Virus record (IMG/VR): IMGVR_UViG_3300009146_000002
Location: 1-64,000 of that record
DNA from: a virus
Reading direction: 5' to 3' (one strand)
DNA length: 64,000 nucleotides
The notes under the pieces were generated by a model, which was not told where the DNA came from, searched no databases, and was given only the letters and a program-made list of their open reading frames with translations. The position numbers and the translations under genes were made by a program. Within the stretch, counting starts at the first letter, position 1, and the number at the start of each line of letters is the position of its first letter. Positions 683-63,520 of this stretch are shown piece after piece.

Positions 683-690
683 GCATATGC
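683..690. promoter_or_regulatory. GCATATGC palindrome in the gap before the 708 gene
   Basis: Perfect 8-bp palindrome in the 27-bp gap between the adaptor-like gene and the next start. It is followed by a GAGGAG ribosome binding site at 695-700. One of seven exact copies in the window; see the findings for the operator hypothesis. Confidence 0.4.
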
Positions 691-707
691 GTGTGAGGAG
701 ATGACCT

Positions 708-1001
708 ATGGCTGACCTGAAGAGCTTCTGGGACAACCCCGGGATGCCGACCTCGACCGACCTCGGCGGCGACGGCGTCGTCAACAGCGGCACCGACCCG
801 AACGTCAACGTCGATGCCCCGAACGGCCTGCAGCCGATCTGGCAGAACGACCCGGTGCCGTCCATCTCGGCCGGCGGGTCGGAGTCGGAGAACTCGGTCT
901 CGGGCCTCCCGGCGCTGCCCAACCGCTTCGAGCCGACCGAGCAGCCGCCCCCGCCGCCGACGCTCCAGGACCGCCGGCCCGGCACGATCGACGAGAGGTA
1001 A
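708..1001 (+). CDS. Small acidic proline-rich structural-region protein
   Basis: 97 residues from an ATG preceded by a clear GAGGAG site. The protein is low in complexity, acidic and polar, with a PPPPP tract near the C-terminus and no recognisable domain. It sits between the adaptor-like gene and a small beta protein, 5 bases from the next start, so it is co-transcribed with virion genes. It may be a minor virion component or linker. I do not recognise the family. Confidence 0.6.
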   Translation: MADLKSFWDNPGMPTSTDLGGDGVVNSGTDPNVNVDAPNGLQPIWQNDPVPSISAGGSESENSVSGLPALPNRFEPTEQPPPPPTLQDRRPGTIDER

Positions 1002-1006
1002 GCGCG

Positions 1007-1327
1007 ATGCTGCGCCACTACGTGCTCACGCTCTCCGGCGCGACGCAGCGCCTCTCCGACGCGCTGCCGACGACCACGCCCGGGGGCCCCGACGACCTGA
1101 TGTGCGTGGCGATCCACCTCCAGGCGGGCGGGGCCAACGCGGCGGCGCTCTACCTGGGCGGCTACGGCCAGACGCTGACGAGCGCGATCTACGGCACGCG
1201 GGTGCCCGCCGCCGCCTCGGGGACGCCGTCGGCGCCCTACATCCTCGACGGGCCGGTCAAGCCGTCGCACGTCAGCGTGCTCGGCGCGAACGGCGAGAAG
1301 CTCTCGGTCCTCCTGGTGACCGCCTGA
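1007..1327 (+). CDS. Small beta-sandwich-like phage structural protein
   Basis: 106 residues. The pattern is that of small phage decoration or baseplate-like proteins: an aliphatic/Thr-rich sequence, AALYLGG in the middle and a terminal KPSHVSVLGANGEKLSVLLV strand pair. The stop TGA shares a base with the ATG of the next gene (TGATG), so translation is probably coupled. The fold is inferred from the residue pattern only. Confidence 0.55.
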   Translation: MLRHYVLTLSGATQRLSDALPTTTPGGPDDLMCVAIHLQAGGANAAALYLGGYGQTLTSAIYGTRVPAAASGTPSAPYILDGPVKPSHVSVLGANGEKLSVLLVTA

Positions 1328-2022: not shown

Positions 2023-2035
2023 GAGGCCTCTCGCG

Positions 2036-4254: not shown

Positions 4255-4258
4255 CCTG

Positions 4259-5293: not shown

Positions 5294-5298
5294 CCGCC

Positions 5299-7914: not shown

Positions 7915-8550
7915 ATGACCGACCGCGAGCTGCTCTCCGAACTCCAGTACGTCCTGATCGAACCGCCCGACCAGGGCGACACCTGGCCGTCGCTCATCTG
8001 GACGCGCGACGAAGTCCTCGACGCCGTCAACGGCGGCGTGCGCGCGCTCGTCCACGACACGCATATGCAAGTGGCCCGGCTGGAGATCGCCGTGCCGGCC
8101 GACACCGCCCGCATCGACCACCCGGCCGACTGGCTCGCCACCGCGGCGCTGGTCTGGCGGGCGGCCGACGGGACGCGCACGCCGCTCGGGCCGGTGGACG
8201 GTCTGGAAGGCGATCTCGCGCAGCCCGGCTGGGAGACCACCCCCGGCCTCCCGCTCGGCTACGCGGACCTCGACGGCGAGACGCTCACCTTCCGCCTGGT
8301 GCCCACCCCGGCGGCCGCGGGCGTCGTCGAGCTGCTCTACATTGCGGTGCCGGCCCTCGCCACCGGCACCGCGCCTGGCGCGCCGCTCCCGCTCGCACCG
8401 GAGTTCACCTCCGGCCTGAAGTACGCCGCGCTCGGCACGCTCCTCCGCAAGGTCGGGCGTCTGCTCGATGACGAGCGGGCGCAGTACAGCGAGCGCCGCT
8501 ACCAGCTGACCACCACCGCCGCCGATCTCCTCCTCGGAGGCTTCAGCTAA
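7915..8550 (+). CDS. Second adaptor/neck-like protein
   Basis: 211 residues. Layout parallels the 7168 protein: N-terminal helix ELLSELQYVLIEPP, TRDEVLDAVNGGVRALVHD, then a beta-rich body and a C-terminal helix with LKYAALGTLLRKVGRLLDDERAQYSERRY. Probably a connector or tail-completion protein. Stop TAA overlaps the next ATG (TAATG). Codons at 8058-8072 spell T-H-M-Q-V around a GCATATGC palindrome with A/T-ending codons unusual for this gene. Confidence 0.55.
   Translation: MTDRELLSELQYVLIEPPDQGDTWPSLIWTRDEVLDAVNGGVRALVHDTHMQVARLEIAVPADTARIDHPADWLATAALVWRAADGTRTPLGPVDGLEGDLAQPGWETTPGLPLGYADLDGETLTFRLVPTPAAAGVVELLYIAVPALATGTAPGAPLPLAPEFTSGLKYAALGTLLRKVGRLLDDERAQYSERRYQLTTTAADLLLGGFS
8061..8068. 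promoter_or_regulatory. Intragenic GCATATGC palindrome
   Basis: Exact copy inside the 7915 gene, in the context CCACGACACGCATATGCAAG. The left part matches the promoter-embedded copy at 51686-51693 read on the minus strand (CCACGACATGCATATGCA) at all but one base. No -10-like hexamer follows here. Confidence 0.35.
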
Positions 8551-26495: not shown

Positions 26496-26687
26496 ATGCC
26501 CCGCCCGATGGTCGACCAGCTCCGGGACCACCTCGCCTACACCCAGGTGGTCCCGCTCCGCCGCCTGCCTCCGGGCCGGCACCCGCTCGCCCACATCCGG
26601 CCGGAGGTGATCAAGCTCGCGCTCCGCCGGCTGAGCGAGCGGGCGCCGCTCCCGCGCCTACCGCTGTTCCCGACGGGGGGCGGCTGA
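26496..26687 (+). CDS. Small basic protein at end of late operon
   Basis: 63 residues, Arg/Pro-rich, 6 bases downstream of the holin candidate. Its 3' end overlaps the 3' end of the convergent minus-strand gene by 30 bases. No recognised family; it may be a real late gene because spacing and frame follow the operon, but codon evidence is weak. Confidence 0.4.
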   Translation: MPRPMVDQLRDHLAYTQVVPLRRLPPGRHPLAHIRPEVIKLALRRLSERAPLPRLPLFPTGGG

Positions 26688-26915
26688 GCCCTCCGCGCCC
26701 TTGCGGCGCGTCCAGCTCTCGACCAGCTGCAGCAGCACCTGCCGCTTGGCGATGTGCTCGCGCTTGGCGCGGGCGGTGAACGAGATCCAGAGTCCGGCCG
26801 GGATGCCGCTCAGCAGGTAGCGGCGCGGGGTGCCGGCGGCGGTGTACTTCAGGGAGTAGGGGCGCGCCGGCTTCTTCGGTGTCGCCTTGGTCGGCTTCTT
26901 AAAGGTCGTCGCCAT
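26658..26915 (-). CDS. Ribbon-helix-helix-like small protein
   Basis: 85 residues. A Lys/Pro-rich N-terminus is followed by RRYLLSGIPAGLWISFTARA and KRQVLLQLVESWTRR, the strand-helix-helix pattern of Arc/MetJ/CopG-type DNA-binding proteins, where the beta strand contacts DNA. It lies in a two-gene operon behind the 27238-27266 promoter that contains a GCATATGC palindrome, so autoregulation is plausible but unproven. Confidence 0.5.
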   Translation of the reverse strand: MATTFKKPTKATPKKPARPYSLKYTAAGTPRRYLLSGIPAGLWISFTARAKREHIAKRQVLLQLVESWTRRKGAEGSAAPRREQR

Positions 26916-27195
26916 CCGCGTCCTCCCCCAGCTCGGTGAGCGTGCAGACGATCGTGTCGCCGGCGATGTAGTCGTCGGCCGCCAGCCGCCGCCGCACCAC
27001 CACGGTGGCCCGTGGGTTGACAGGCAAGCCGATCAGCTTGCCTTCCTCGTTCAGCACGAGGACGCGCGTCTCGTCGATGCGCACGATCTCGATGTAGCCG
27101 CCGACGACGGCGTGCAGCTCGTCGAGGGTGAAGGACGTGCCCGCAGCCGGCTGGACTTCTTGGACAGCACCGACGGCGGGGATGAGGGTCGCCAT
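26899..27195 (-). CDS. DUF3846-like protein
   Basis: 98 residues from ATG 27195, preceded by GAAGGAGA. LDELHAVVGGYIEIVRI, VLNEEGKLIGLPVNPRATV and IAGDTIVC match the DUF3846 pattern of small phage/plasmid proteins of unknown function. The C-terminus is Asp/Glu-rich. It is the first gene behind a well-formed sigma70 promoter; its 5' leader holds a CCCGTG/CACGGG hairpin next to the ribosome site. Its stop overlaps the start of the RHH gene by ATG-proximal bases. Confidence 0.6.
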   Translation of the reverse strand: MATLIPAVGAVQEVQPAAGTSFTLDELHAVVGGYIEIVRIDETRVLVLNEEGKLIGLPVNPRATVVVRRRLAADDYIAGDTIVCTLTELGEDADGDDL

Positions 27196-27237: not shown

Positions 27238-27266
27238 ATCCTACCGGACTTGCATATGCATGTCAA
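27238..27266 (-). promoter_or_regulatory. Sigma70-type promoter with GCATATGC in its spacer
   Basis: Read on the minus strand: TTGACA (27266-27261), 17-bp spacer, TAGGAT (27243-27238), then the leader of the DUF3846-like gene. The spacer begins TGCATATGCA, so the palindrome sits just downstream of -35, an ideal position for a repressor to block RNA polymerase. A variant GCATAGGC lies 16 bases further upstream. Confidence 0.7.
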
Positions 27267-27284
27267 CCGCCGCTTGCATAGGCA

Positions 27285-31715: not shown

Positions 31716-31792
31716 GCCGACGTAGCTCAGTTTGGTAGAGCACCGCACTCGTAATGCGGGGGTCACCAGTTCGATCCTGGTCGTCGGCTCCA
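31716..31792 (+). tRNA. tRNA-Thr (CGU anticodon), CCA encoded
   Basis: Complete cloverleaf. Acceptor arms GCCGACG/CGTCGGC pair fully, discriminator T, CCA encoded. D arm GCTC...GAGC; anticodon stem CCGCA/TGCGG with loop CTCGTAA, anticodon CGT; T arm ACCAG TTCGATC CTGGT. It reads ACG Thr codons. It ends 13 bp from the 3' end of the convergent integrase gene, so it probably contains or reconstitutes the bacterial attachment site as well as being a functional tRNA. Confidence 0.95.
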
Positions 31793-33104: not shown

Positions 33105-33416
33105 CTAGTGCGACGTCTTGCGCGACTTGATCCAGCTGACGTCGTCGGGGTCGGCTGCCACTGGCGCGCCGACACGGAAGTGCTCGATCCACCGATCGAA
33201 CGCGCGCTTGCTGACCAGCACGCGGCCCTTCTTCTTCCCCGGGATGCAGACCTGCCAGTGCGGCAGCTGGTGATCGTCGGTGCGCTTGAGATGGCGCTGC
33301 AGCGTCCGCACCGAGAGGCGGCTGTAGCGGGCGAGCTCGTCGAGGTCGAGGTAGTCCGTGCGTCCGTCGTCGTCGTCGTCGTCATGGCTACGCACCCGTC
33401 CTGGTAGCTGTGACAT
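33105..33416 (-). CDS. xis: Excisionase-like HTH protein
   Basis: 103 residues from ATG 33416. An Asp run encoded by GAC repeats (33364-33384) is followed by LDLDELARYSRLSVRTLQRHL and GRVLVSKRAFDRWIEHF, the winged-helix pattern of MerR/excisionase-type (HTH_17) proteins. It ends 9 bases upstream of the integrase start, the classic recombination directionality position. Symbol is by role, not by homology I can name. An out-of-frame ATG at 33385 is rejected because the domain reads in this frame. Confidence 0.65.
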   Translation of the reverse strand: MSQLPGRVRSHDDDDDDGRTDYLDLDELARYSRLSVRTLQRHLKRTDDHQLPHWQVCIPGKKKGRVLVSKRAFDRWIEHFRVGAPVAADPDDVSWIKSRKTSH

Positions 33417-33603
33417 GGGAGGCCTCGATGCCCTTCTCTTTCGCCCAGAGCGCGACCGCGCGGTCGACCTGGGCACTGTAGGGGACGCCGTCCCTGTCCA
33501 AGATCGCCTTGAGCAGGTCGCTCGTCTCCAGCGTGATGTGAACGTTCAGTTGGCGCTTGCCCGGGGCACTCGCCGGCTTCGACTTGCGTGTCGGTGTTGT
33601 CAT
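33388..33603 (-). CDS. Ribbon-helix-helix regulator of the integration module
   Basis: 71 residues. RQLNVHITLETSDLLKAILD and YSAQVDRAVALWAKEKG give the strand-helix-helix of CopG/Arc-like DNA-binding proteins. Its 3' end overlaps the excisionase-like gene by 29 bases. Just upstream are 10-bp spaced TGTCTAGC repeats within a promoter, a typical RHH operator layout, suggesting autoregulation of the xis-int operon. Confidence 0.6.
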   Translation of the reverse strand: MTTPTRKSKPASAPGKRQLNVHITLETSDLLKAILDRDGVPYSAQVDRAVALWAKEKGIEASHVTATRTGA

Positions 33604-33757: not shown

Positions 33758-33931
33758 TCAGCGTCCCTCCGTCACTCCCCACCCCTGCCAGTTGATCCGA
33801 AAGCACCGCCGGCACACCGCGCCCCGCACCGGCTCGGGCGTCGTGGTCACGATCACCGCCACCCGCCCGGGCGCCTTCCCGCAGTCGAGACAGATCGGCT
33901 CAGTCGCTTGCGCTGCCGCTGCCGCTGCCAT
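33758..33931 (-). CDS. 57-residue zinc-ribbon-like protein
   Basis: ATG 33931 with GGAGGAGGGG just upstream; stop TGA 33760-33758 abuts the next small gene. After an Ala run, CLDCGK and CRRCF form a CxxC...CxxC pair spaced ~23 residues, a typical small zinc ribbon. Overlaps the 3' end of the methyltransferase-like gene by 32 bases. Function unknown. Confidence 0.55.
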   Translation of the reverse strand: MAAAAAAQATEPICLDCGKAPGRVAVIVTTTPEPVRGAVCRRCFRINWQGWGVTEGR

Positions 33932-34505
33932 CGCCCCCTCCTCCGCTCCCGCGTTTCGTCAGCACCAGACTCGCCAGCGAGTGGTCGTCCAGCCAGTCGC
34001 CGTGGTACGTCCAGTCCACCCCGCCGAAGTGCTTGAACCCCACCTTCCGCGCATCCCGGATCAGCCGCTGGTAGCTGTGCGCCGAGTAGATCCGCCGCCG
34101 CTCGCCGCGCCCGCTCGCCGTATCCCGGCCCTCGGCGGCCCAGTAGGCGAACGTCAACACCAGCAGCCCCTCGGGCCGGAGGATCTCCGCCGCCTGGTGG
34201 AGGAACCGCACGGGCGCCTCCACGCGGTCGAGCACGCACAGCCCGTAGACCGCCGGCACGCCGCCCTGCTGCCCGTCGACCAGCTGCGCTTCCCCCGGGT
34301 ACCAGTAGGTCGCGGTCGGCCCCGGCGCCTGGAAGAGCACCTCCGAGTAGTTCACGACCAGGCCGCCGTCGCGGACGCGCAGGTGGGTCGCCTCCACCCA
34401 GCGGGCCCAGGCCGCCTCGGCCAGCCGCTGCTGCCACTGCGCCACGCTCAGGCACCCGGGGAAGTCCCGGAGGTTGCAGGTGCGGGAGAGGGCCAGGGTG
34501 GACAT
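33900..34505 (-). CDS. Methyltransferase-like protein
   Basis: 201 residues. GGVPAVYGLCVLDRVEAPVR, AAEILRPEGLLVLTFAYW and KVGFKHFGGVDWTYH follow the class I SAM-methyltransferase pattern from motif IV onward, but the glycine-rich SAM motif I is not evident, so it may be degenerate or binding-only. Ends in a Gly/Ser-rich tail overlapping the next gene. Start context is GATGCATAGGTATG, a variant of the recurrent palindrome, with no conventional ribosome site at normal spacing. Confidence 0.5.
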   Translation of the reverse strand: MSTLALSRTCNLRDFPGCLSVAQWQQRLAEAAWARWVEATHLRVRDGGLVVNYSEVLFQAPGPTATYWYPGEAQLVDGQQGGVPAVYGLCVLDRVEAPVRFLHQAAEILRPEGLLVLTFAYWAAEGRDTASGRGERRRIYSAHSYQRLIRDARKVGFKHFGGVDWTYHGDWLDDHSLASLVLTKRGSGGGGDGSGSGSASD

Positions 34506-34514
34506 ACCTATGCA

Positions 34515-35141
34515 TCACGCCCCGGCCACATCGGGCGACTCGAAGTCGAAGCAGCCGGGCACCGGCCCTTCGCGGTAGCCCTGACCGCGCACGGGCGCGA
34601 GGATCTCCAGCGTGGGATGGAGCGTGACGCACTGGTAACACGGCCCGTGGCCCAGATCCTCGATCGGCGAGGCGAGCACCTCCGCGTGGGTCGTCCAGCC
34701 GGCGACGGTGAAGACCAGCCAGCCGCGCGTGGTCGGCACGCCGTCGCCGGTCAGCACGAGGTAGAGGTCGGGAGCCTCCTTCTTCGCCTTCACGCGCGCC
34801 GCTTCCCGCGCGCAGTCCAGCTTGATGACGCCGTGGGGGTGGTCCCACACGACGTTGAGGAGATCGCCGCTCGGCAGCCGCAGGTTGTAGTGGTAGTAGC
34901 TGTCGAACTGGATCATCGGGCAGACATTCGCCGCGACGGCCACGGCGGTCTCCACCAGGCCGCCGCCGCGGTCGTTTCCCAGGATTGCGAAGTGATCCTG
35001 AATGACGCGCGGCCGGTAGCCGCGCGCCCGATTGATCCCGTAACGGTAGTCGCCGATCAGGCAGCCGAAGGGTTGCTGGCGTTCGCTGAGCCAGATCCGC
35101 TGGCCGCGTGTGAACGACACCGCCACCTTCAGGTCGATCAC
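34515..35141 (-). CDS. Conserved-looking early protein of unknown function
   Basis: GTG 35141 overlaps the helicase stop (TGTGA), giving 208 residues. It contains DHFAILGNDRGGGLVETAVAV, FDSYYHYNLRLPSGD, HGVIKLDCAREAARVKAKKE and GWLVFTVAGWTTH. The IKLD...KAKKE stretch hints at a nuclease-like fold but no complete PD-(D/E)XK triad is convincing. Sits between helicase and methyltransferase-like genes. Confidence 0.5.
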   Translation of the reverse strand: MIDLKVAVSFTRGQRIWLSERQQPFGCLIGDYRYGINRARGYRPRVIQDHFAILGNDRGGGLVETAVAVAANVCPMIQFDSYYHYNLRLPSGDLLNVVWDHPHGVIKLDCAREAARVKAKKEAPDLYLVLTGDGVPTTRGWLVFTVAGWTTHAEVLASPIEDLGHGPCYQCVTLHPTLEILAPVRGQGYREGPVPGCFDFESPDVAGA

Positions 35142-36142
35142 AGCCACGCCTTCAGCCGCGGATCGGTCGTACACCGCTCGATGATCGCCGCCCGGCTCCC
35201 CACCAGCCGCAGCCCCGCCGCGGTGCGACTGCGGCTCAGCGCGACATACATCATCCCGGGCGACTTGAAGAAGGCGTCCCGGACGTTGACCTGCACCTTA
35301 TCCAGGCTCAGCCCCTGGCTCTTATGAACCGTACTTGCATATGCAATTCTCAACGGCATGTAGGTGATCTCGCCGGCAATCTCCCACCGCTCCTCGATGC
35401 GGTCCTCGTGCCCCGCCGCGCGCAGCTCCTTCCGCCGCGTGCTATCGGCCGGCAGCTTCACCTTCCGCGACACCGGGATCACAAACTCGACCAGGCCCGT
35501 CCGCTGCAGCCGCACGTAGGCCCCCCGCACCCGCCGCTCGTGCCCCTTGCCGTCCACGACGTAGTCGTCGCCGACGTCTTCCAGCGTGCCGAGGTCGCCG
35601 TTCACATAGGTGAGCGCGCCGGCCTCGCGGCGGTTGGCGAGGATCATCACCAGCGCCCCTTGCTTGAGCGGCAGCTCCTGGGGGATGCCCCAGGTCGACG
35701 GCGGCTTGTCGGGATTGCCCCACTCGCTGCGCTGCTTGCCCCAGCGGGAGGAGCTGAAGGTCACCGGCGCGCCCGGCAGCCGCGAGAGCCGCAGCGCGTT
35801 GTAGCGGTCGACGCTCTCGTTCTTCGCGTGGATGGTCGGCCCCTCGAAGTGGTCGTCGGTCTCAGTCGCGATGGCGTTGCGTGCGAGGAAGTAGTCGGCG
35901 ACCTGCTCCCCCTGGCCCGCGCGGGCCGCGCGCAGCATCGCGATGAACTCGGGATCGGACTGCCGGCGGATCTCGGTGAGGGTGATCGTGTTGGCCTGGA
36001 ACCGCCCCCACTCGCTCGCCTCAAACGCATAGGTCGCCTTCACCGGCGACAGCTGGCAGAAGTCCCCGACCAGCGTCAGGCCCATCGCTGGCGGCCCGCT
36101 CTCACCCTCATCAGCGTCCTTGTCCTTCTTGGTCGACAGCAC
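35138..36142 (-). CDS. Pif1/RecD-like helicase, C-terminal part in a separate frame
   Basis: 334 codons from GTG 36142. GLTLVGDFCQLSPVKATY is helicase motif III, LTEIRRQ motif IV, and YASTVHKSQGLSLDKVQV with MYVALSRS motifs V-VI of SF1B helicases. It lacks the Walker A and B motifs, which lie in the overlapping upstream frame (36111-36710), so the two form one helicase separated by a frameshift or two interacting chains. The A-Y-A-S codons at 35336-35347 are GCA TAT GCA AGT, A/T-ending and unlike the rest. Confidence 0.8.
   Translation of the reverse strand: MLSTKKDKDADEGESGPPAMGLTLVGDFCQLSPVKATYAFEASEWGRFQANTITLTEIRRQSDPEFIAMLRAARAGQGEQVADYFLARNAIATETDDHFEGPTIHAKNESVDRYNALRLSRLPGAPVTFSSSRWGKQRSEWGNPDKPPSTWGIPQELPLKQGALVMILANRREAGALTYVNGDLGTLEDVGDDYVVDGKGHERRVRGAYVRLQRTGLVEFVIPVSRKVKLPADSTRRKELRAAGHEDRIEERWEIAGEITYMPLRIAYASTVHKSQGLSLDKVQVNVRDAFFKSPGMMYVALSRSRTAAGLRLVGSRAAIIERCTTDPRLKAWL
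35337..35344. promoter_or_regulatory. Intragenic GCATATGC palindrome in the helicase
   Basis: Exact copy in the codons for A-Y-A of helicase motif V. The minus-strand context TTGAGAATTGCATATGCAAG has a weak -35-like hexamer, as in the promoter copies, but no good -10. Confidence 0.35.
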
Positions 36143-36899: not shown

Positions 36900-37232
36900 C
36901 TAACGCGCCAGGGAGACACGCTCCGCCCGCTTGCCCCGTGGCACCTGCCGCGGCTCGAACTCGACGAGGATCCCCGGCAGCAGCTCGGCGAGCTCGACGT
37001 CGATGAGGCCGGTGGTGTGAAAGAAGAAGTCCTTGCCGACGTCGCCTGCGGCGCCCTCGGTACACCGGATGAACCCGAACCCGCGCTCGGGATAGATGTG
37101 CTGGACGGTGCCGCGCGCGTGCCCGGTGCTGAGCGTGCTCTCTGCGGCGTCGGTCTTCGGTTGCTTGCTGCCCACGGTCGCCTCCCTCTGAAGTCCTGCG
37201 GTCGTTGTCGCGGTCGTTGTCATGGTCATCAT
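36900..37232 (-). CDS. Cold-shock-domain protein
   Basis: 110 residues from ATG 37232, 8 bases after GGAGG. The start region is a Thr/Met-rich leader from ACG/ACA/ACC codons. The C-terminal CSD has GTVQHIYPERGFGFIRC (RNP1-like GFGFI) and DFFFHTTGL (RNP2-like), binding single-stranded nucleic acid. A phage copy could act as RNA chaperone or antiterminator. An inverted repeat CACTTGCA/TGCAAGTG lies just upstream. Confidence 0.8.
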   Translation of the reverse strand: MMTMTTTATTTAGLQREATVGSKQPKTDAAESTLSTGHARGTVQHIYPERGFGFIRCTEGAAGDVGKDFFFHTTGLIDVELAELLPGILVEFEPRQVPRGKRAERVSLAR

Positions 37233-37256: not shown

Positions 37257-37280
37257 TTGCACATCCATATGCAAGTGAGC
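37257..37280. promoter_or_regulatory. Inverted repeat CACTTGCA-N8-TGCAAGTG before the cold-shock gene
   Basis: Perfect 8-bp arms in the short gap upstream of the cold-shock gene. The loop contains CATATG, so the element is a split version of the GCATATGC sites. Suggests a regulatory protein site in the leader. Confidence 0.45.
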
Positions 37281-41256: not shown

Positions 41257-42699
41257 TCACTCCTCCTCGTCGACGACGTCCGCTTCGGCGGGGAGCAGCC
41301 CGCGCGCAATCGCCTGATGTAGTTCCGGGTCGTGGTGCGGCAGGCGGGGCTGGTAGTGCCCCGTGCCGAGTGGGTCTTGCCAGCCTTCGTGCCGGTGGCA
41401 GACCGGGACGAACTCACACTGATGCTCTTTCCCGAACGGCCGGCACGCCCAGCTGCAGGGGACCAGCTCATCGAGGCGCGCCTGGAAGGTCTCGCTCGCC
41501 CAGCCGTGCCCCGCCGCCTGCAGCTCATAGAGCGTCCAGAGCACCTCCTGCCAGCGGCGCTCTTCGCCGAGGAACCCTCTGAGCAGGCCCTGCAGCTGCT
41601 GGTCCTGGCGGTTCATCGGCCCGAGGATGAAGCACACCTTGTCGAGCACCGACTCGGGCAGGAACCGCACCCAGAACTCTTCAGGTGTCAGCCCCGGGTT
41701 GCTCGCTTGATACGCCTTCCACACGGGCCAGTCGCTCTCAGCCAGCGTGGTGACCAGGGCCCGCTTATGCGCCCGGCTGGCGCGCTTCGTCTCGCCGTGC
41801 TCGTTGACCCACTCGTAGGTGGGGAGCCAGTCGTCAGTCGCCAGCGGCGGGTTGCCCTCACGCTTGTAGCCGTAGCAGAGCGGCGAGGACTGCTTCTTCC
41901 GGGTGTCGCTGCTGTCGCCGTACCGATCCCGCACGCGCCGCCCTTTGTTCAGGCCGACGATGTACAGCTCGGTGACTTCAGCGCCCCACTTCTTCTCCGC
42001 ATCCACCGTGCCCAGCGCCAGCTGGGCGTCCGTCTCCCACTGTTCCGCCCAGGCCTCGCTCTCCCAGCCGGTCGTCTTGCACTCGAAGTAGGCGAGGTTC
42101 GATCCGCCGCGCCGCTGCGCCAGGAGATCAGTCCTGAGCATGATCGCCTTGCCCACGCAGCCCCGGCGGATGTGTTCATCCCCATCGAGCGGCGGCGCCC
42201 CGCAGCTGCAGTCGAGCAGATGGAGTCGCTCCTCTTCGACCGCGACCACCTGGTAGTTCGCGTGCAGCCAGGGCAGGAACTTCAGCCGCAGCGCCCAGGC
42301 CAGTCCGCTGATCAGGGCGGCCTGCTCGGCGATCGTCTCTTCGGTGTCGGGCCCGCCGAGGATCCCCCGGTAGCCGCGCGCGTCGACCTGCGCGACATAC
42401 TCGGCGACCAGGCTGGCGATGATCCCGCGCGTTTCTTCGAGCGTCGGCACGCGGTCGTGCTGCTTCAGGATCGATGCATAGGCTTCTAACACCCGGTGGA
42501 CGTAGATGCCGGTGACCAGCGGCAGGGCGTGCTTCCTGAGCGTCATGCCGTAGCTGTTCCCACTGTGGTAGCTGAGATAGCGGGCGCGGGCACAGCGCGA
42601 GGTGCCGAGCTTGAACCGGGATCGATCGGTGAACCAGAGCAGGGGGGCGATAGGCGTGGGCGTCGTCGTCGTCGTCGTCGGTGGCGGAGTGGTCGTCAT
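41257..42699 (-). CDS. Cas4/RecB-like PD-(D/E)XK nuclease
   Basis: 480 residues. Starts with a run of Thr from ACG/ACC repeats. Contains an N-terminal Cys (TSRCARARYLSY), RTDLLAQRRG and LAYFECKTTGW (D...ExK active site), and a C-terminal Cys set (VPCSWACRPFGKEHQCEF, VPVC) as in 4Fe-4S Cas4/AddB-type nucleases. Likely a 5'-3' or end-processing exonuclease acting with the RecA-like ATPase in phage recombination. Confidence 0.75.
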   Translation of the reverse strand: MTTTPPPTTTTTTPTPIAPLLWFTDRSRFKLGTSRCARARYLSYHSGNSYGMTLRKHALPLVTGIYVHRVLEAYASILKQHDRVPTLEETRGIIASLVAEYVAQVDARGYRGILGGPDTEETIAEQAALISGLAWALRLKFLPWLHANYQVVAVEEERLHLLDCSCGAPPLDGDEHIRRGCVGKAIMLRTDLLAQRRGGSNLAYFECKTTGWESEAWAEQWETDAQLALGTVDAEKKWGAEVTELYIVGLNKGRRVRDRYGDSSDTRKKQSSPLCYGYKREGNPPLATDDWLPTYEWVNEHGETKRASRAHKRALVTTLAESDWPVWKAYQASNPGLTPEEFWVRFLPESVLDKVCFILGPMNRQDQQLQGLLRGFLGEERRWQEVLWTLYELQAAGHGWASETFQARLDELVPCSWACRPFGKEHQCEFVPVCHRHEGWQDPLGTGHYQPRLPHHDPELHQAIARGLLPAEADVVDEEE

Positions 42700-42734: not shown

Positions 42735-43040
42735 TCAGGGCGTGCTACTGCCGAGCGCTGGATCGCCGCGGGCCGGGGCCCTGGGGCGTTTGTGTTTGGG
42801 GTTCGCCGGCAGCCGCTGGGCCAGGAGCGTCTGGAGCGGGACGCCGGTCACCGCGTGCAGCTTCACCGCCAGGCGCGCCGACGGCGCCCGCTTGCCCTTG
42901 GCCAGCATCGAGATCATCGACTGGTTGCACCCGACCGCCGCGGCCAGGGCGCGCTGGCTCACGGCCGGCGGTCCTTGGAGGAACGCACGCAGGCTGCGCA
43001 CGGGCGAGCGGCGGGCGGCGGGCGTGATGAACTTTGTCAT
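42735..43040 (-). CDS. Cro-like XRE helix-turn-helix regulator
   Basis: 101 residues from ATG 43040. SQRALAAAVGCNQSMISMLA is a clear helix-turn-helix, followed by RLAVKLHAVTGVPLQTLL. C-terminus is basic and Pro-rich. It is the first gene of the minus-strand early operon, divergent from a CI-like gene 243 bp away, the classic Cro position. Promoter with consensus -35 lies at 43076-43105. Confidence 0.75.
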   Translation of the reverse strand: MTKFITPAARRSPVRSLRAFLQGPPAVSQRALAAAVGCNQSMISMLAKGKRAPSARLAVKLHAVTGVPLQTLLAQRLPANPKHKRPRAPARGDPALGSSTP

Positions 43041-43283: not shown

Positions 43284-43955
43284 ATGGCACACTCCGACCG
43301 ATCGACGACGACGACGGCAGCAGCTCCCCCTCTCACGTTGTCGCAAGCACTGAACGAGCGTATCCGGCAGCTGTTGAAACGGGAGCGGTGGTCACAGCGG
43401 GACTTCGCCAAGCGGCTGGGGGTGACCCAGGGCGCGGTGAGTTATCTCCTGGCAGAGAAACGGCGGGCGGCGGCGTTGGACTACTACGAACGCCTGGCGG
43501 GGGTGTTCGGGGTATCCCTCAGCGTCCTGATCGCGGACCTGGAACAGCAAGTCGGGCACGTTGGGCACGTTGGGCAAGCTGCGCACGCTGGAAAGGGAGT
43601 CCTGGATGCCGCCTCGTCGTCGCCCGCAATCTTCATGTCCTCCGCCGCCGTTGAAGGCAGTCGCGAAGAAACTGTGCTCCTCCGCACCCTCCTCGACGCC
43701 CTCCTCCGCGCTCAACTCGCCGCCAGCGACGCGCGCATCGACGCTCGTGTTGCAGCGGCCTTCACGGCCTTCACTGAGCGCGATGGGCGAAGCGCGCCTG
43801 CGCCAGATCCGCACGACCGCCGTCACCGAGCGCCGAAGAAGCGGGCAGACGGTCGACGCGCGGATGAACCTGCTGTGTCAGCGGATGCGGGCGCTGATCA
43901 CCAACTACCCCCTGGACGGCATCAATCTGCTGGCGGTGTGCGAAGGGCTGGCTGA
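43284..43955 (+). CDS. CI-like XRE repressor candidate
   Basis: 223 residues. After a Thr run from ACG repeats, LNERIRQLLKRERWSQRDFAKRL and VTQGAVSYLLAEKRR form an XRE helix-turn-helix (~24-62), followed by YYERLAGVFGVSLSVLIADL. The middle has a GHVGHVG repeat. From ~165 the sequence becomes low-complexity and looks out of frame, while a good reading continues in the +1 frame, so the true C-terminus may be the 43783-43989 segment. Confidence 0.65.
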   Translation: MAHSDRSTTTTAAAPPLTLSQALNERIRQLLKRERWSQRDFAKRLGVTQGAVSYLLAEKRRAAALDYYERLAGVFGVSLSVLIADLEQQVGHVGHVGQAAHAGKGVLDAASSSPAIFMSSAAVEGSREETVLLRTLLDALLRAQLAASDARIDARVAAAFTAFTERDGRSAPAPDPHDRRHRAPKKRADGRRADEPAVSADAGADHQLPPGRHQSAGGVRRAG

Positions 43956-49638: not shown

Positions 49639-50091
49639 CTAGAAGCTCGTGGGTCGATAGCTTGCCGCCGGAGCCAGCGTGCGGCGCAGGGACTGGTACG
49701 CAGGCGATTGCTGCGACCGGACCAGCCACTGTGACCGCCGTTGCGCCTCGTCGGCTTGCATATGCGAGTCGTACATGCGGCAGCCGTACGGCGCCACCGC
49801 GTGGATCGTGCAGCGGTCGTCCGCGCTGAGAAAGACGCACCGCCCGCCAGCCAGGCGCGGCGTGATCGTGCCCACGCGGAACACCTCGCCGGTCGCGCGG
49901 TTCCCTACCAGCGCCCCCGGGCTGGCCCAGAACTTCGCCAGCACAGCCGCGACCGGCCGCGCCAGGTACGCGGCGATCTGCTCCAGCTCCCCGGCGGCAA
50001 GGCTGCCGGGCTGCTCGTGGCAGCCACGGCGGCACTCGTCGCAGGCGCAGACCGTGCGGGCGAACGGCGGGCCGTCCGGGGGCGACGTCAT
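49639..50091 (-). CDS. YkgJ-like zinc/iron-chelating domain protein
   Basis: 150 residues. CACDECRRGC in the N-terminus and RCTIHAVAPYGCRMYD match the CxxCxxxC...C...C pattern of YkgJ/PF03692 metal-chelating proteins. Codons around 49755-49769 encode S-H-M-Q with a GCATATGC palindrome. ATGA overlap with the upstream gene. Metal chelation is family knowledge; role in phage unknown. Confidence 0.6.
   Translation of the reverse strand: MTSPPDGPPFARTVCACDECRRGCHEQPGSLAAGELEQIAAYLARPVAAVLAKFWASPGALVGNRATGEVFRVGTITPRLAGGRCVFLSADDRCTIHAVAPYGCRMYDSHMQADEAQRRSQWLVRSQQSPAYQSLRRTLAPAASYRPTSF
49758..49765. promoter_or_regulatory. Intragenic GCATATGC palindrome
   Basis: Exact copy inside the YkgJ-like gene, encoding part of S-H-M-Q-A with CAT and CAA codons. 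Minus-strand context ACGACTCGCATATGCAAG resembles the promoter copies on the -35 side only. Confidence 0.35.
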
Positions 50092-50743: not shown

Positions 50744-51138
50744 CGCCCGCCCCCCGTCGTCCATGCCGCGCGCACAGCCGCGCGGAGTTCCTCGGTTGCC
50801 GTGTCGTTCCACTCGTCCGGGTCCGTGTCCTCGTGGGCGGCGAACCGTGCCACCTCATCGGGCCACGTCTCGGCGCGCTCCGCGAAGTGGTTCGGCCCGC
50901 TCGTGTGCGCCGCCAGCCAGCGCAGGCACGCGGGCGCGTCCCAGTCGTCCACCTCTGCCTGTTCCAGCTCGCGCTCGGCGTCCCACGCTTCGAGCACCGC
51001 GTTGTTGCACTCCTCGGCGAGTAGCTCGTACACGCCCGCCACGGCCAACAGCTGGCTCGGGGCGGTGTACGTCTCGTCAAGGTGGGCGGCGAGTAGCCGA
51101 TCAAAGTCGGCCGTGGTCATCGCGTCGTAGCGGCTCAT
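50740..51138 (-). CDS. Helical acidic accessory protein
   Basis: 132 residues from ATG 51138. MTTADFDRLLAAHLDETYTA, AECNNAVLEAWDAERELEQA-type helices and an acidic C-terminal part (EDTDPDEWNDTATEELRAAV). No recognised domain. Coupled at both ends. Confidence 0.5.
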   Translation of the reverse strand: MSRYDAMTTADFDRLLAAHLDETYTAPSQLLAVAGVYELLAEECNNAVLEAWDAERELEQAEVDDWDAPACLRWLAAHTSGPNHFAERAETWPDEVARFAAHEDTDPDEWNDTATEELRAAVRAAWTTGGGR

Positions 51139-51602
51139 CGCGCGCCCCCAGCGGCGGGCGCCGCGTTCGGGTCGGTCCACGGGTGGGCGTCCGGGTACTC
51201 GCTCAGGTAGCGCCGCACGCCCGGGTCGTACTGCTCACGCGCGATCAGCCGGTAGACCTCCGCGCGGTCCACGCCCCGGAAGATCACGCCCGTGTAGCCC
51301 TCCGGCACGGTCGGGTGCCAGCTGCCATAGGCGCTTGTCACTTCCAGCTCGCCGGCGGCCAGCCGCGCGTGCTTCGCCGCCTCTTCAGCCGTGCGCTTCG
51401 CCGCGCCGTCCTTGCAGCCGGTGTGAAGCGTGGCCTTGTGCTTCGCGTAGCAGCCCGGGCACAGGGCGCTCGGGTAGCAGTACGGCAGGGCGCCGCCGCT
51501 CGCGTAGTGAACCTTGTGCGGGCAGGTCCGCTTGCGGGTCTGGCCGCAGGCGCCGCAGCTATCGCAGGCCAGCCGCCCGCGCAGATCGTATGAGTATCCC
51601 AT
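51135..51602 (-). CDS. Zinc-finger accessory protein, first gene behind a GCATATGC promoter
   Basis: 155 residues; GAGGAGAGAG before ATG 51602. N-terminus has CDSCGACGQ, RTCPHK, YCYPSALCPGCYAKH, likely two zinc sites; C-terminal part GVIFRGVDRAEVYRLIAREQ. Ends AAPAAGGAR from the shared junction. The ~70-nt leader is rich in ACGACC/ACAACG triplets. Confidence 0.55.
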   Translation of the reverse strand: MGYSYDLRGRLACDSCGACGQTRKRTCPHKVHYASGGALPYCYPSALCPGCYAKHKATLHTGCKDGAAKRTAEEAAKHARLAAGELEVTSAYGSWHPTVPEGYTGVIFRGVDRAEVYRLIAREQYDPGVRRYLSEYPDAHPWTDPNAAPAAGGAR

Positions 51603-51670: not shown

Positions 51671-51700
51671 ATCCTAACACAGGATGCATATGCATGTCGT
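51671..51700 (-). promoter_or_regulatory. Second promoter with GCATATGC in its spacer
   Basis: Minus-strand ACGACA (51700-51695), 18-bp spacer starting TGCATATGCA, TAGGAT (51676-51671). Same -10 and same palindrome placement as the 27238-27266 promoter 24 kb away, so the two are probably co-regulated. Confidence 0.6.
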
Positions 51701-57330: not shown

Positions 57331-57340
57331 CGGCAAGCAT

Positions 57341-59638
57341 ATGTATCACCCGGATGTGATCGCCGAGCGCGAAGCGGCCGCGACCCGCCAGTTCGGGAGT
57401 GCGTTCCCGAACGGCGTGATCCCGCGCTACAGCGTGCGCGACAGCGCGGCGCTGACCGCCTCGGCGATGGCCGCGGTCGACGAGACCGGCGCGCCCATCC
57501 GCCCGCTCACCGAGGACGAGGCGCTGTTTGTCACCAGCTCGCGCCTGCGGGTGATCTACGACTTCCCCTACTTCGCCGAGCGCTTCTGCTGGATCGACAT
57601 GGAAGGCCACGGGCTGCGCCGGCTGACCCCCTTCTGGGAGTCGCAGAAGCTGGTCCTGGATCAGCTGGGGCGGATCGAGAAGGCCAACCAGGCGAACGGG
57701 TCGCCCGATGGGCTGCTCCTGAACATCCTGAAGGCCCGGCAGCTGGGCGTCTCGACCCTCAGCGAGGCGCTGGTCGCGCACCGCATCGTCACGCGCGCGC
57801 ACATCCGGGCGCTCAGCGCGGCGGACGTCGAGGACCAGGCCGGGTACCTGTTCCGCATGGTCGTGCGCATCTACGACCAGCTGCCCTGGTTCGTCCGCCC
57901 GGGGAAGGTCTACTTCAACAAGAACCGCGAGCTCAGCCTCGCCAACCAGTCGTTCCTCAAGACCGCCTGGGGCAAGTCCACCCGCGGCGCGCTCCAGGCC
58001 CAGACCGGCCTCGAAGGCTCCAAGGGCTCGATCGGCCGCGGCCAGACGTACTCGGTCGTCCACATCTCCGAGCTCCCGACCTGGGAGAACCCCGAGCAGC
58101 TCGACACGGCGCTCCTGCCCGCCATCCCCTACGCCCCGGACACCCTGGTCCTCTACGAAGCGACCGCGGAGTTCGCCGGCGACTGGTGGCACAAGCACTG
58201 GCTGGCCTCCGGCGAGGGCGAAGGGCGCTTCAAGAACATCTTCATCCCCTGGTCGGCCGAGCCGAAGAAGTACTCGCTCCCCGCCCCGCTCGACTGGTCG
58301 CCCTCGGTCACGACCCTGGCGCACGCGGTCAAGGCCGAACGGGACTCGCCCAAGTGGTTCGCCGGCGAGACGCGCGTCCTCAGTCGCGAGCAGCTCTACT
58401 GGTACGAGAAGACGCGCGGCTTCTACGAGAAGAAGGGGCAGCTCTACAAGTTCCTCAAGGAGTACCCGGCCGACGACCTGGAGTGCTTCCAGTACGCCGG
58501 GCGGAGCATCTTCACACTCGAACAGCTGGAGCAGATCGACCAGGCGGGCTCCCGCCCGCTCCTCGACGTCTGGGCGGTCGAGCCGGCCCTCGGCATCGCG
58601 CAGCTGCGCCGCGACCACAGCACCGACAAGCCCTCAGCCGACCTGCAGGCCAAGCGCGTCGTCCCGCCGCTCGCGCCGCACGTCTCGCGCCTCTCGACCC
58701 TCGTCTCGCACGAAGTCGAGCCCGTCCCGCCGGGCTACGGCTTCCGCCGGCTCGACAAGGCCGCGCTCGCCTCGCTGCCCAACCTGCGCCAGGGCGTGCT
58801 CGCGATCTGGGAGTACCCGCGGGTGCGCGGCAGCCGCAGGTACATCCTCGGCGTCGACGTCTCCGACGGCCTGGGCCAGGACTACTCCGTCATCGACGTC
58901 ATCCGCCAGCCGACGATCGAAGAGCCCGCCGAGCAGGTCGCGCAGTACGTCACCAACGTGCTCGACCCGAAGGCGCTCGCCTTCGTCTGTGACGCGATTG
59001 GCCGCTACTACGCCGACCCGGACGGCATCGAGGCGCTGGCCGCGATCGAGACGAACAACCACGGCCTGGCGACCCAGGACACGCTGCAGCTGCACCTGGG
59101 CTACAGCCACTTCTACGTCTGGGAATATGCGGATGCCGCTTCAGCCGAGCGGCGCTATTCCACCCGCATCGGCTGGGTGACCTCCCCCCGGACGCGCCCG
59201 CTGCTCCTGGCCAGCTTCCACAACGCGGTGACCGCGTTTGACCCGATCACCGCGCGGCCCGACTTCGTGCTCAACAGCCCGATCACCCGCGGCGAGCTGC
59301 GCCACTTCATCACCGCCTCGACGATCGGCGAAGCCGAAGCCGCGCGCGGCCAGCACGACGACTGCGTGTTCGCCGCCGCGATCGGCTTCTACGTCTCCTG
59401 GCGCATGTCGGGCGGCGAGGTGGAACCGGTCGCCGAGCGGCGCCGCCGCAAGACGGCGTTTGACGCGCTCACGGCTGAGGCGCAGATCGACCGCCCCGAC
59501 TACCGCAACAGCCCGGCCTCCGCCGAGGACGCCGACGACCTGGAGACTGACCATGAAGAACGCGCCAGCCCCGACGACTACTACAGCCTCAGCGACGACA
59601 CCGCGGGGCTCTTCTTCGACGACCGCACGCGCGCCTGA
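57341..59638 (+). CDS. terL: Terminase large subunit
   Basis: 765 residues, long for TerL. LLLNILKARQLGVSTLSEAL (~126-145) is the variant Walker A of TerL; VVHISELPTW (~238) fits motif II. The nuclease RNase H-fold has ILGVDVSDGLGQDYSVIDVI (~502), AIETNNHG and QHDDCVFAAAIGFYVSW acids. Acts as packaging ATPase/nuclease at the portal. The ATG sits in CAAGCATATGTATCACC, overlapping a palindrome variant, without a normal ribosome site. Confidence 0.9.
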   Translation: MYHPDVIAEREAAATRQFGSAFPNGVIPRYSVRDSAALTASAMAAVDETGAPIRPLTEDEALFVTSSRLRVIYDFPYFAERFCWIDMEGHGLRRLTPFWESQKLVLDQLGRIEKANQANGSPDGLLLNILKARQLGVSTLSEALVAHRIVTRAHIRALSAADVEDQAGYLFRMVVRIYDQLPWFVRPGKVYFNKNRELSLANQSFLKTAWGKSTRGALQAQTGLEGSKGSIGRGQTYSVVHISELPTWENPEQLDTALLPAIPYAPDTLVLYEATAEFAGDWWHKHWLASGEGEGRFKNIFIPWSAEPKKYSLPAPLDWSPSVTTLAHAVKAERDSPKWFAGETRVLSREQLYWYEKTRGFYEKKGQLYKFLKEYPADDLECFQYAGRSIFTLEQLEQIDQAGSRPLLDVWAVEPALGIAQLRRDHSTDKPSADLQAKRVVPPLAPHVSRLSTLVSHEVEPVPPGYGFRRLDKAALASLPNLRQGVLAIWEYPRVRGSRRYILGVDVSDGLGQDYSVIDVIRQPTIEEPAEQVAQYVTNVLDPKALAFVCDAIGRYYADPDGIEALAAIETNNHGLATQDTLQLHLGYSHFYVWEYADAASAERRYSTRIGWVTSPRTRPLLLASFHNAVTAFDPITARPDFVLNSPITRGELRHFITASTIGEAEAARGQHDDCVFAAAIGFYVSWRMSGGEVEPVAERRRRKTAFDALTAEAQIDRPDYRNSPASAEDADDLETDHEERASPDDYYSLSDDTAGLFFDDRTRA

Positions 59639-59993: not shown

Positions 59994-59995
59994 TG

Positions 59996-60873: not shown

Positions 60874-60892
60874 GAAGCATAGGCATCTCCCA

Positions 60893-63046
60893 ATGGCAGA
60901 CTTCTCCAAGTCCGGTGTGCTCGACCTGCCCCGCTCGACCGCCGAGGCGCTCACCCACGGCGACCCGCGCGTCCTGGGCTGGCTGCGCGAGTGGATCCAG
61001 GAAGGCGACATGATCAATCGCCAGGATCCCTCCTACGACCTGATCGGCAAGGCCCAGGACTACATCGTCGGCAACCAGCTCAGCGCCGATCAATGCAAGC
61101 TCAAGTACCTCCCGCAGGTCGTCATCAACGAGACCCGGAAGGCGATGCAGGCGCACGTCGCGGCGATTACCGACCTGAAGCCGGTGGCGGGCTGGAAGAC
61201 CAACCCCGAGTTCCAGGTCCAGGCGAACATGCTGAACCAGTACCTCATGGCCGAGTGGATGACGACCATGATGGACCTGGACCTGGGCGACTGCGTCAAA
61301 TACAGCCTCGCGGGAGGGACCGGCGACCTGGTCATCGACTGGGATCCGCACGCCCCCCACGGCGGCGCGCACCAGCTGACCGCCCGCGACCCGCGCGACA
61401 CGCTCCCGCTCCGCCCGTCCTTCGGCCGATCGAACCAGCTGTGGGAGGGCGCCTGCTTCCGCGAGGAGCACACCGTCAACGTGCTGCGCGGCATGTACCC
61501 GATGCAGGCGCACGCCTTCAAGGCCTCCCCCGACACGCTGCTCGGCCAGGTCATGGGCCGCTTCCGCACGGGCCTCTCGCGGCTGATCTCGCCCGCCGAC
61601 CCGCTCGACTCGATCGCCTGGCCGGGATCCGCCTCCACCACTCGCCGCGCGCGCTCGGGCGCGATCGTGCTCTACCGCGCCTACTTCAAGGACCGCACGC
61701 GCAATCTCACGACCAAGCCGATCGTGATGGGCACGCCCGGCGCCAACTGGTCCTACGTGGTGCAGCCGCAGCAGCCGCTCTACCCGCGGGGGCGCCTCCT
61801 GGTCGCGACCGAAGACACGATCATCTACGACGGCCCGAACACCTACTGGCACGGCATGTTCCCCTTCTGCCGGCTGAAGCTCTGGTCGGTCCCCTGGCAG
61901 TTCCTCGGCGTGCCGCTCTTCAACGATCTCCTGCCGCTCCAGGACGCGATCAACGACACGATGCACGACATCCGCCTGGCGATGCGGCAGTGGACGAACC
62001 CCGACATCACCTACAACCGCACGGCGGTCTCTGAAGCGACGATGAAGCTGATGGACCCGCGCCGCCCCGGCAAGCGGGTCAAAGTGATGCCCGGCTTCGG
62101 CGACCCGTGGAAGAAGGAAGACGGCCCCAACCCCGCCATCATCCAGATGGGGATCGAGATGTGGGAGAAGCTCACGCAGAAGTTCACCGACCTCTCCGGG
62201 ACGGCGAACCTGCAGGCGCTCCTGCAACTCCGCCAGATGCCCTCGGCCGACACGATCCAGAAGTACTACGAAGCGCTCACGCCCGAGATCCGCTCCGAAG
62301 CGCGCCAGGTGGAACTCTTCCTGCGCGACTTCAGCGAGATGGTGAAGATCAACTACTTCCAGTTCCTCAGCCAGTCCAAGCGCGTGCAGATCCTCGGGCA
62401 GGGCGGCAACACGCTCAACGAGTTCGACTTCGATCCCGAGCAGTTCGTCCCCAGCTTGCGCCCCGGCGATCCCGGCTACACGCCCGAACTCGACGGCCAG
62501 ACCACCTCGCGCGACCAGCGCGCGCAGTACTTCCACAAGCAGTTCGTCTTCATCGTCCAGCCGAACTCCGTCCTGGCGATGGACGCGACCGAGCGGAAGA
62601 TGATGCGCGTCCAGCTGGCCCGCATGGGCTACTACGACTTCTGGTCGCTGCACGAGACGCTCGAAACACCGAACGTCGGCGCGCCGCCCGCCCTCCCGCT
62701 GCCGCCGCTCACGCCCCCGCCGGCCGATGTCCTCACGCAGATGCTCGCGCAGGTGCAGAACACGCCCGGCGCGCTCGGCGCGATGTCGACCGGCGCGATG
62801 GGCCTGCCGCAGTACACCGACCCGGCCAGCCAGCGCACCTTCACGATGGACGTGGCCTCGGGCCAGATCCTCGAAGTGCGCGTGCCGGTCACGGTCACCG
62901 AGCGGCTGCAGGCGCAGTCGTCCCTCGGCATCGGCCAGACGGTCAATCCCGCCGGCCGGAAGGCCAGCGGCCAAGCGGCCCCGCAGAGCGAAACGAAGAA
63001 CGACGAGCCGGGCGGGCGGCAGACGATCACCGAGAGCGACAAGTAG
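60893..63046 (+). CDS. Portal protein
   Basis: 717 residues, typical for podovirus portals. N-terminus RVLGWLREWIQEGDMINRQD, wing/crown regions with KYLPQVVINETRKAMQAHVA, GDLVIDWDPHAP, FCRLKLWSVPWQFLGVPLF and LLPLQDAINDTMHDIRLAMR; C-terminal barrel-like helices TIQKYYEALTPEIRSEARQV. Forms the dodecameric DNA-entry channel and docks TerL. The start follows GCATAGGCAT, another motif variant, rather than a close Shine-Dalgarno. Confidence 0.85.
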   Translation: MADFSKSGVLDLPRSTAEALTHGDPRVLGWLREWIQEGDMINRQDPSYDLIGKAQDYIVGNQLSADQCKLKYLPQVVINETRKAMQAHVAAITDLKPVAGWKTNPEFQVQANMLNQYLMAEWMTTMMDLDLGDCVKYSLAGGTGDLVIDWDPHAPHGGAHQLTARDPRDTLPLRPSFGRSNQLWEGACFREEHTVNVLRGMYPMQAHAFKASPDTLLGQVMGRFRTGLSRLISPADPLDSIAWPGSASTTRRARSGAIVLYRAYFKDRTRNLTTKPIVMGTPGANWSYVVQPQQPLYPRGRLLVATEDTIIYDGPNTYWHGMFPFCRLKLWSVPWQFLGVPLFNDLLPLQDAINDTMHDIRLAMRQWTNPDITYNRTAVSEATMKLMDPRRPGKRVKVMPGFGDPWKKEDGPNPAIIQMGIEMWEKLTQKFTDLSGTANLQALLQLRQMPSADTIQKYYEALTPEIRSEARQVELFLRDFSEMVKINYFQFLSQSKRVQILGQGGNTLNEFDFDPEQFVPSLRPGDPGYTPELDGQTTSRDQRAQYFHKQFVFIVQPNSVLAMDATERKMMRVQLARMGYYDFWSLHETLETPNVGAPPALPLPPLTPPPADVLTQMLAQVQNTPGALGAMSTGAMGLPQYTDPASQRTFTMDVASGQILEVRVPVTVTERLQAQSSLGIGQTVNPAGRKASGQAAPQSETKNDEPGGRQTITESDK

Positions 63047-63061
63047 CCCGAGGGAGGCTCT

Positions 63062-63520
63062 ATGCATATGCGACGACGGCTGACACTCCTGCTCGTGACC
63101 GCGACGCTCGCGCTCGCTCCGGCCTGCACCAAGGTCTACACCGACGACGATCGCAATAACGGCGCGGTGGTCACGCCGACGCCCCTGCCCACGCCCACCC
63201 CGACCCCGGCCCCGGTCGTCAAGACCGACCGGATCGAGTTCCGCGTCCTCGGCGCGGGGCTCGCCGCCTTCACCCCGGTCATCGTCCGCCACACCGATGC
63301 GGTCAACGGCCTGACCCTCTATGCCGGGGCGACGCCCTACTTCGTGCAGTTCGACTCGACCGAGTCGACCGTCTTCCTCTACATCGAGGCGTCGGGGAGC
63401 GGGTCGCTCCTCCAAAGCACGCTCCAGGTCCAGATCTACGTGAACGGCAAGCTGTTCCGCGAAGGCTACGCGCAGGGCGTCACCCTGAGCGCGACGGCCA
63501 GCGGCACCTATCGTCGGTAG
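63062..63520 (+). CDS. Lipoprotein, lysogenic conversion candidate
   Basis: 152 residues from ATG 63062; the second ATG at 63068 is possible, and the GCATATGC palindrome lies across the start. Signal peptide RRRLTLLLVTATLALAPAC with a LAPA-C lipobox, a TPTPLPTPTPTPAP linker, then a beta domain (IEFRVLGAGLAAFTPVIVRH, LYIEASGSGSLLQSTLQVQI). Probably anchored in the outer membrane; could alter adsorption or be superinfection exclusion. Role is inference. Confidence 0.65.
   Translation: MHMRRRLTLLLVTATLALAPACTKVYTDDDRNNGAVVTPTPLPTPTPTPAPVVKTDRIEFRVLGAGLAAFTPVIVRHTDAVNGLTLYAGATPYFVQFDSTESTVFLYIEASGSGSLLQSTLQVQIYVNGKLFREGYAQGVTLSATASGTYRR
63064..63071. promoter_or_regulatory. GCATATGC at the lipoprotein start
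   Basis: Exact copy directly overlapping the start codon region (TATGCATATGCG) 15 bp after the portal stop. Ribosome site GGGAGG lies just before. Confidence 0.4.

Follow-up and report, generated by a model that had tools for sequence, protein, structure and literature searches.

The DNA analysed here, hereafter called the window, comprises positions 1-64000 of a 69,732-base-pair (bp) virus record, IMG/VR record IMGVR_UViG_3300009146_000002, which was labelled G000 in our comparison. The 8-bp palindrome GCATATGC recurs throughout the window, and comparison with related phages indicates that it is very probably the core of a 16-bp operator read by an autoregulated repressor of the ribbon-helix-helix (RHH) type, which would also act at dispersed sites resembling the stoperators of mycobacteriophage L5. 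The evidence taken directly from sequence consists of the motif itself, the positions of its copies, selection on codons, co-occurrence with the RHH gene, and covariation between protein residues and operator bases. The motif-bearing phages are a family of uncultured soil phages.

Occurrence and placement of the palindrome

Seven exact copies of GCATATGC were located in the window, at 683, 8061, 27252, 35337, 49758, 51686, and 63064, exactly as the original prediction had listed them. Dinucleotide shuffles of the window gave a mean of 0.32 copies with a maximum of 3, and a second-order Markov model gave 0.11, in agreement with the claim that fewer than one copy would be expected in 64 kb; neither null, nor the codon shuffling described below, reached the observed counts. 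GCATATGC was the most over-represented 8-bp palindrome of both the window and the whole record. The GC content was 70-71%, slightly higher than the predicted value of about 67%. Taken as a class, one-mismatch variants did not exceed chance (19 matches, of which 7 are the exact copies, versus 14 +/- 3.6). The individual relaxed sites that had been proposed after the polymerase gene, at the 34505 gene, at terL, and at the portal gene did match the 16-bp motif, with scores of 12-17.

Related loci were gathered with the portal protein (44 loci), and 23 related virus records, which may be fragments, formed the comparison set. GCATATGC was contained in 14 of the 23, with up to 10 copies in the longer ones, and others of 46-72 kb had none. 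Pooling 63 distinct sites from the window phage and its relatives yielded the 16-bp palindrome A-S-W-W-GCATATGC-W-W-S-T, in which the two bases on each side of the core showed a strong A/T preference, followed by S and, further out, A. Exact copies score well on the resulting position matrix by construction, because it was built from exact sites. At a threshold for which 1.4 matches per 70 kb were expected, the matrix gave 10-18 matches per longer motif-bearing record and mostly 0-1 in motif-lacking ones (3 in G012 and 4 in G010); for a score of at least 12, about 0.3 matches per 70 kb were expected. The exact 16-mer ACTTGCATATGCAAGT was found in 19 stretches of viral contigs. The sites in the window are as follows.

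683..690: GCATATGC, in the gap separating two structural genes, 22 bp upstream of the start codon (ATG) of gene 708-1001
8061..8068: GCATATGC, inside structural gene 7915-8550
27252..27259: GCATATGC, predicted auto-operator 1, score 27.0
27276..27283: GCATAGGC, predicted auto-operator 2, 24 bp from auto-operator 1, score 15.2
34506..34513: variant copy reading GCATAGGT on the minus strand, where gene 33900-34505 starts, score 12.3
35337..35344: GCATATGC, inside the helicase gene 35138-36142 (minus strand), codons GCA TAT GCA
37265..37272: CCATATGC, upstream of gene 36900-37175 (minus strand), score 20.5
42476..42483: GCATAGGC, inside gene 41257-42699 (minus strand), score 19.5
49758..49765: GCATATGC, inside the open reading frame 49639-50091 (minus strand)
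51686..51693: GCATATGC, between ACGACA (-35-like) and TAGGAT (-10), upstream of gene 51135-51602 (minus strand)
57337..57344: GCATATGT, including the ATG start codon of terL (57341), score 16.0
60877..60884: GCATAGGC, just upstream of the portal gene 60893-63046, score 17.3
63064..63071: GCATATGC, where gene 63068-63520 starts

Two of the exact copies (27252 and 51686) lie in promoter spacers and three (8061, 35337, and 49758) within genes, as had been claimed, and the remaining two (683 and 63064) are at gene starts. Across the records, 79 distinct sites scored at least 15, of which 40 were promoter-proximal and 13 at start codons; these 53 of 79 (67%) compare with 9.9% for random positions. 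Sites located 40 bp or more upstream also had higher promoter scores than random positions (p=1.5e-9). A frequent promoter layout was TTGACA, 1-3 bases, GCATATGC, about 8 bases, and TANNNT, and the palindrome therefore fills the spacer between -35 and -10; TTGACA-(GCATATGC)-TANNNT was found at the RHH operon of many phages. Tandem site pairs recurred at a spacing of 20-22 bp, the spacing being 24 bp in G000 and, once, 28 bp in G018. At start-codon sites, the word often included the ATG, as at terL (57337). A site upstream of the structural gene cl9 was present in six motif-bearing records (G002, G019, G003, G018, G015, and G013) and absent from every motif-lacking relative. Boundaries other than cl9 were common to fewer genomes, so the set of sites turns over. 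Relatives with the regulator keep sites at several of the same boundaries and codons, and those without it lack them.

Synonymous shuffling of 10 motif-bearing records gave a mean of 1.51 within-gene copies and a maximum of 6 in 300 shuffles, versus 16 observed; for G000 alone, 3 copies were observed versus 0.27. In the helicase motif PLR(V/I)AYA(S/A)TVHKSQG, AYA is encoded by GCA TAT GCA in G000, G002, G003, G015, and G018. The word also occurs in G009 and is thus kept in all six motif-bearing records that contain the helicase motif; elsewhere, G005 uses GCG TAT GCG and G012 uses GCC TAC GCA. Similarly, in the polymerase segment SPGxIWMWN, the rare ATA encodes Ile in G002, G003, G015, G018, and G019, and ATC does so in G000, G005, G007, G010, G012, and G013. 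Comparative codon usage and shuffling therefore agree with the earlier claim about intragenic copies, and support the view that coding copies of GCATATGC are under selection for the DNA word.

Three other repeated words were observed in the related records. G010 (loci L080-L083), with only 3 GCATATGC sites, carries a second, unrelated dispersed palindrome: CACGCGTG occurs 31 times in the whole record versus 2.8 expected, and 0-2 times in the other records compared, with copies about every 2 kb that are mostly intragenic and have A...T flanks in about half. In G020 (L109, record positions 37079-37201), AGTTAACT occurs three times within about 120 bp, with 0.03 expected in this record, and is possibly a replication or partition repeat. 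In G007 (L105-L107), GGCCnnnnnGGCC occurs 27 times versus 5.4 expected, a level not seen in other relatives.

The candidate reader and its competitors

The proposed reader is encoded behind the DNA polymerase gene, in an operon with two promoter sites (27252 and 27276).

26658..26915, minus strand: RHH (Arc-like) protein, 85 amino acids, proposed reader of GCATATGC, recognition strand RRYLLSGIP (residues 31-39)
26899..27195, minus strand: DUF3846 protein, 98 amino acids, first gene of the same operon, Pfam PF12957 (E=4.7e-14)
27238..27266, minus strand: operon promoter TTGACA-t-GCATATGC-aagtccgg-TAGGAT, palindrome within the 17-bp spacer

Orthologues with the strand YLLSGIP were found in all motif-bearing genomes covering the region downstream of the polymerase gene (G000, G002, G013, G015, G018, and G019), and in G010. 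The RHH gene was absent from G007, G012, and G022, and G005 and G020 have RHH proteins with other strands. Exact GCATATGC sites numbered 3-10 in 7/7 genomes with a YLLSGIP protein and 0 or 1 in 5/5 without an RHH protein or with another strand (Fisher's test for at least 3 exact sites, 7/7 versus 0/5, p=0.0013 with relatedness ignored). This count leaves out G003, which from its site positions ends inside the polymerase gene, and G006, G009, G016, and G021, in which no polymerase gene was seen. Site occurrence thus tracks the RHH gene, in support of the original prediction of many sites read by a single phage regulator, and the 26658-26915 protein is the likely reader of GCATATGC.

Besides the RHH operon, G000 encodes an integrase and a separate Cro/CI pair, and three further genes of the window were considered as readers.

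42735..43040, minus strand: Cro-like XRE protein, Pfam HTH_3, rejected as reader
43284..43955, plus strand: CI-like XRE protein, 223 amino acids, divergent partner of the former, rejected as reader
33388..33603, minus strand: second RHH-like small protein, near the integrase, rejected as reader

A classical lysogeny switch, in which the Cro/CI-like pair reads the sites, would fit the presence of this pair in the window and in several motif-bearing phages. However, G018 and G015, which have no divergent pair, have 18 and 16 motif matches, respectively, whereas G012 has a CI-like gene and a Cro-like tblastn match but essentially no sites. The divergent Cro/CI spacer of G000 contains no site, with no motif match scoring at least 9 between 42476 and 49758, and the operator tracks the strand of the RHH protein. 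This switch is therefore a highly improbable explanation of the sites. The second RHH-like protein was rejected because it is absent from G015, despite the 16 motif matches there.

The long C-terminal part of the CI-like protein matched no family. The gene order of the divergent XRE pair is conserved in several relatives; in others, a gene from a different family (cl46) lies close by. In the window, a tRNA-Thr (CGT) gene at 31716-31792 lies directly beside the tyrosine integrase gene (31806-33095), possibly an attachment-site arrangement.

The AF2 model of the 26658-26915 monomer has confident helices at residues 40-53 and 57-76, after a conserved segment at 31-38. The PHROG family phrog_6506 (Arc-like repressor) matched RHH homologues with E-values from 7e-6 to 7e-4, and Foldseek matches of the model were mostly RHH proteins (ParG, CopG, Arc, MatP, AmrZ, CdbA, PutA, and several antitoxins). 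Pfam RHH models gave matches below cut-off only, family searches with the protein gave no helix-turn-helix (HTH) match, and a profile search of the PDB gave weak matches only, the best RHH match being ParG (E=0.37). A search of genome contigs with the RHH profile found no relative, and no close homologue was found among isolated phages. Sequence evidence, together with the covariation described below, places the protein best in the RHH superfamily, pending a structure.

Strand residues and operator bases

RHH homologues were collected in five scans, giving 44 non-redundant proteins. A recognisable autoregulatory operator was found for 37 of them, 28 by an automatic rule blind to the protein; the rule fired at 28/44 RHH loci, compared with 30/880 shuffles and 3/128 other regions. 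The pairings of strand and operator are as follows.

Strand S36-G37: operator GCATATGC
Strand D36-[QSAEN]37: operator TCATATGA
Strand T34: operator TCCATGGA
Strand [MT]34-K37 (VYFMLDKIP or VAFTVDKIP): operator TACATGTA
Strand [LV]34-R37 (VQL(L/V)IDRIP): operator TACTAGTA
Strand E34-R37: operator TACCGGTA
Strands DL or DD: CCATATGG-like operator
G005, strand YLLDSIP: AATCATATGATT, at the same promoter position
G020, strand YTLDQIP: AATCCATGGATT

When half-sites were counted, S36-G37 paired with G at -4 (18/18). K or R at residue 37 paired with A at -3 (24/24) and all other residues with C (50/50), and at -1 residue 34 paired with T when it was L or V (52/52), with A when T or M (8/8), and with C when E (14/14). 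This covariation indirectly supports putative contacts of residues 34, 36, and 37 with operator bases. Residues 32, 34, and 36 of the strand would share one face, as known for RHH proteins; position 37 also tracks operator bases, which a dimer-DNA model would need to explain. With residues 36-37 masked, the L145 protein (G005) groups with S36-G37 proteins, although it carries D36-S37 and its operator is TCATATGA; the switch therefore happened at least twice. The branch joining L145 to L132 has only 60-71% support, and the wider placement among S36-G37 proteins is the relevant point. Part of a protein-DNA recognition rule thus appears to be readable from sequence, in that changes in the putative contact residues are accompanied, across relatives, by changes in the DNA word.

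The flanks, the promoters, and this covariation bear on whether GCATATGC might instead serve in methylation, restriction, or packaging, or as a signal read by the host and independent of any phage regulator. An over-represented palindrome alone would fit such signals, but the extended 16-bp flanks, the placement in promoter spacers, and the covariation with RHH residues would not, and this explanation is very improbable.

Alternatively, the sites might serve genome organisation or partition, with the RHH protein acting on a centromere or macrodomain in the manner of ParG or MatP and the promoter sites only autoregulating it. ParG as the best RHH profile match, the presence of ParG and MatP among the fold matches, and the dispersal of sites, some of them intragenic and conserved, are consistent with such a role. 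Against it, the sites concentrate at promoters and gene starts (the 53/79 given above), phages of the D group have for the most part retained the operator only at their own promoter or close to it, and no ParA-type ATPase was recognised among the listed neighbours of the RHH gene, although no search aimed at an ATPase was made. We consider such a role unlikely.

Taken together, the homologues seem, with somewhat better than even probability, to form an RHH repressor family with a compact code (residues 34, 36, and 37 versus bases -1, -3, and -4); within this family, one lineage would have expanded an autoregulator into a stoperator-like regulon spanning the genome, with codon choice preserving sites inside conserved coding sequence.

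Proposed mechanism and relation to known systems

In the proposed mechanism, an RHH dimer would put two antiparallel strands, one per half-site, into the major groove, where residues 34, 36, and 37 would specify bases. Recognition by a strand in the groove is the known RHH mode (cf. the title of 1par). Neighbouring sites may fill cooperatively, the protein's own operon often having a second site about 21 bp away. Protein bound between -35 and -10 would exclude RNA polymerase and thereby repress its own operon and other promoters. In the portal-defined family, the operator would have spread to 10-18 places, including promoters, late-gene start codons, and the helicase and polymerase genes. At start-codon and intragenic sites, the protein would most probably repress initiation or roadblock the elongating polymerase in a stoperator-like manner. 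The initiation block would follow from site position and established repressor biology, and roadblocking is suggested by analogy with L5 stoperators (PMC9283540, PMC6550527).

The clustering of sites at the starts of terL, portal, and other structural genes could also indicate that the RHH protein activates or times late genes, with start-codon sites marking genes switched on at a set stage; the RHH protein AmrZ is reported to be both activator and repressor (PMC3325190). Nevertheless, at promoters the sites occupy the interval from -35 to -10, so that a bound protein should obstruct polymerase, and the start-codon sites lie downstream of any promoter of those genes. A repressor rather than an activator is favoured because of the former position, and activation is quite unlikely.

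Several points weigh against an autoregulated RHH repressor with dispersed sites. Promoter occlusion alone does not account for the intragenic and start-codon sites. The AF2 monomer model did not build the strand at 31-38, which is expected only in the dimer; the window protein itself had no Pfam match and no PHROG Arc-like match, only its homologues having the latter; and the Foldseek E-values were all at least 1. Nine of the 37 operators were assigned by eye, and no operator could be recognised for seven homologues (L157, L159, L168, L172, L207, L214, and L219). The covariation counts overstate independence, because many of the homologues are related. Finally, genes were called with our own simple caller.

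Arc of phage P22, which belongs to the RHH superfamily with CopG, ParG, AmrZ, and MatP, is likewise a small RHH protein, a likeness reflected in the PHROG Arc-like match of the homologues and the RHH-dominated fold matches. Arc acts at few sites, unlike the dispersed set described here. In cluster A mycobacteriophages, the repressors of L5 (gp71) and TipsytheTRex act at 20-30 stoperators per genome, some in promoters and most near gene boundaries, and repressor and stoperator sequences diverge together; the L5 sites are asymmetric 13-bp sequences whose orientation matters, and are recognised by a monomeric protein that combines an HTH domain with a stoperator domain (PMC9283540, PMC6550527). 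The present system is similar in having one predicted repressor, many sites in promoters and short intergenic spots, and joint divergence of protein and site, and differs in its 16-bp palindrome, its 85-amino-acid RHH-like protein, its 10-18 sites, and the location of some of these in conserved codons. In the Bacillus prophage SPbeta, the repeated 15-bp element SPBRE occurs in many phage promoters and is bound by the master repressor MrpR (PMC10516654). A repeated element in many promoters and one phage regulator, here predicted, are common to both systems; however, MrpR has a tyrosine-recombinase fold, and SPBRE is described in promoters or intergenic regions, not in start or conserved codons. 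With its palindromic sites and RHH-like protein, the present system would work like L5 stoperators and SPBRE/MrpR and is a member of neither. The open-access literature searched yielded neither a residue-base code for RHH proteins deduced from natural phage homologues nor a phage regulon of dispersed RHH sites.

Few phages are known to have dispersed repressor sites. In this family, the number of sites varies among relatives from one auto-operator to about 18, and the spread of a regulon can therefore be followed. The family also provides a phage example of synonymous selection that preserves regulatory DNA words within conserved codons. At least six natural strand types pair with matching operators, which provides a testable RHH recognition code and offers operator prediction for uncultured phages from protein sequence. 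If specificity follows residues 34, 36, and 37, the code would define immunity or compatibility groups among uncultured phages.

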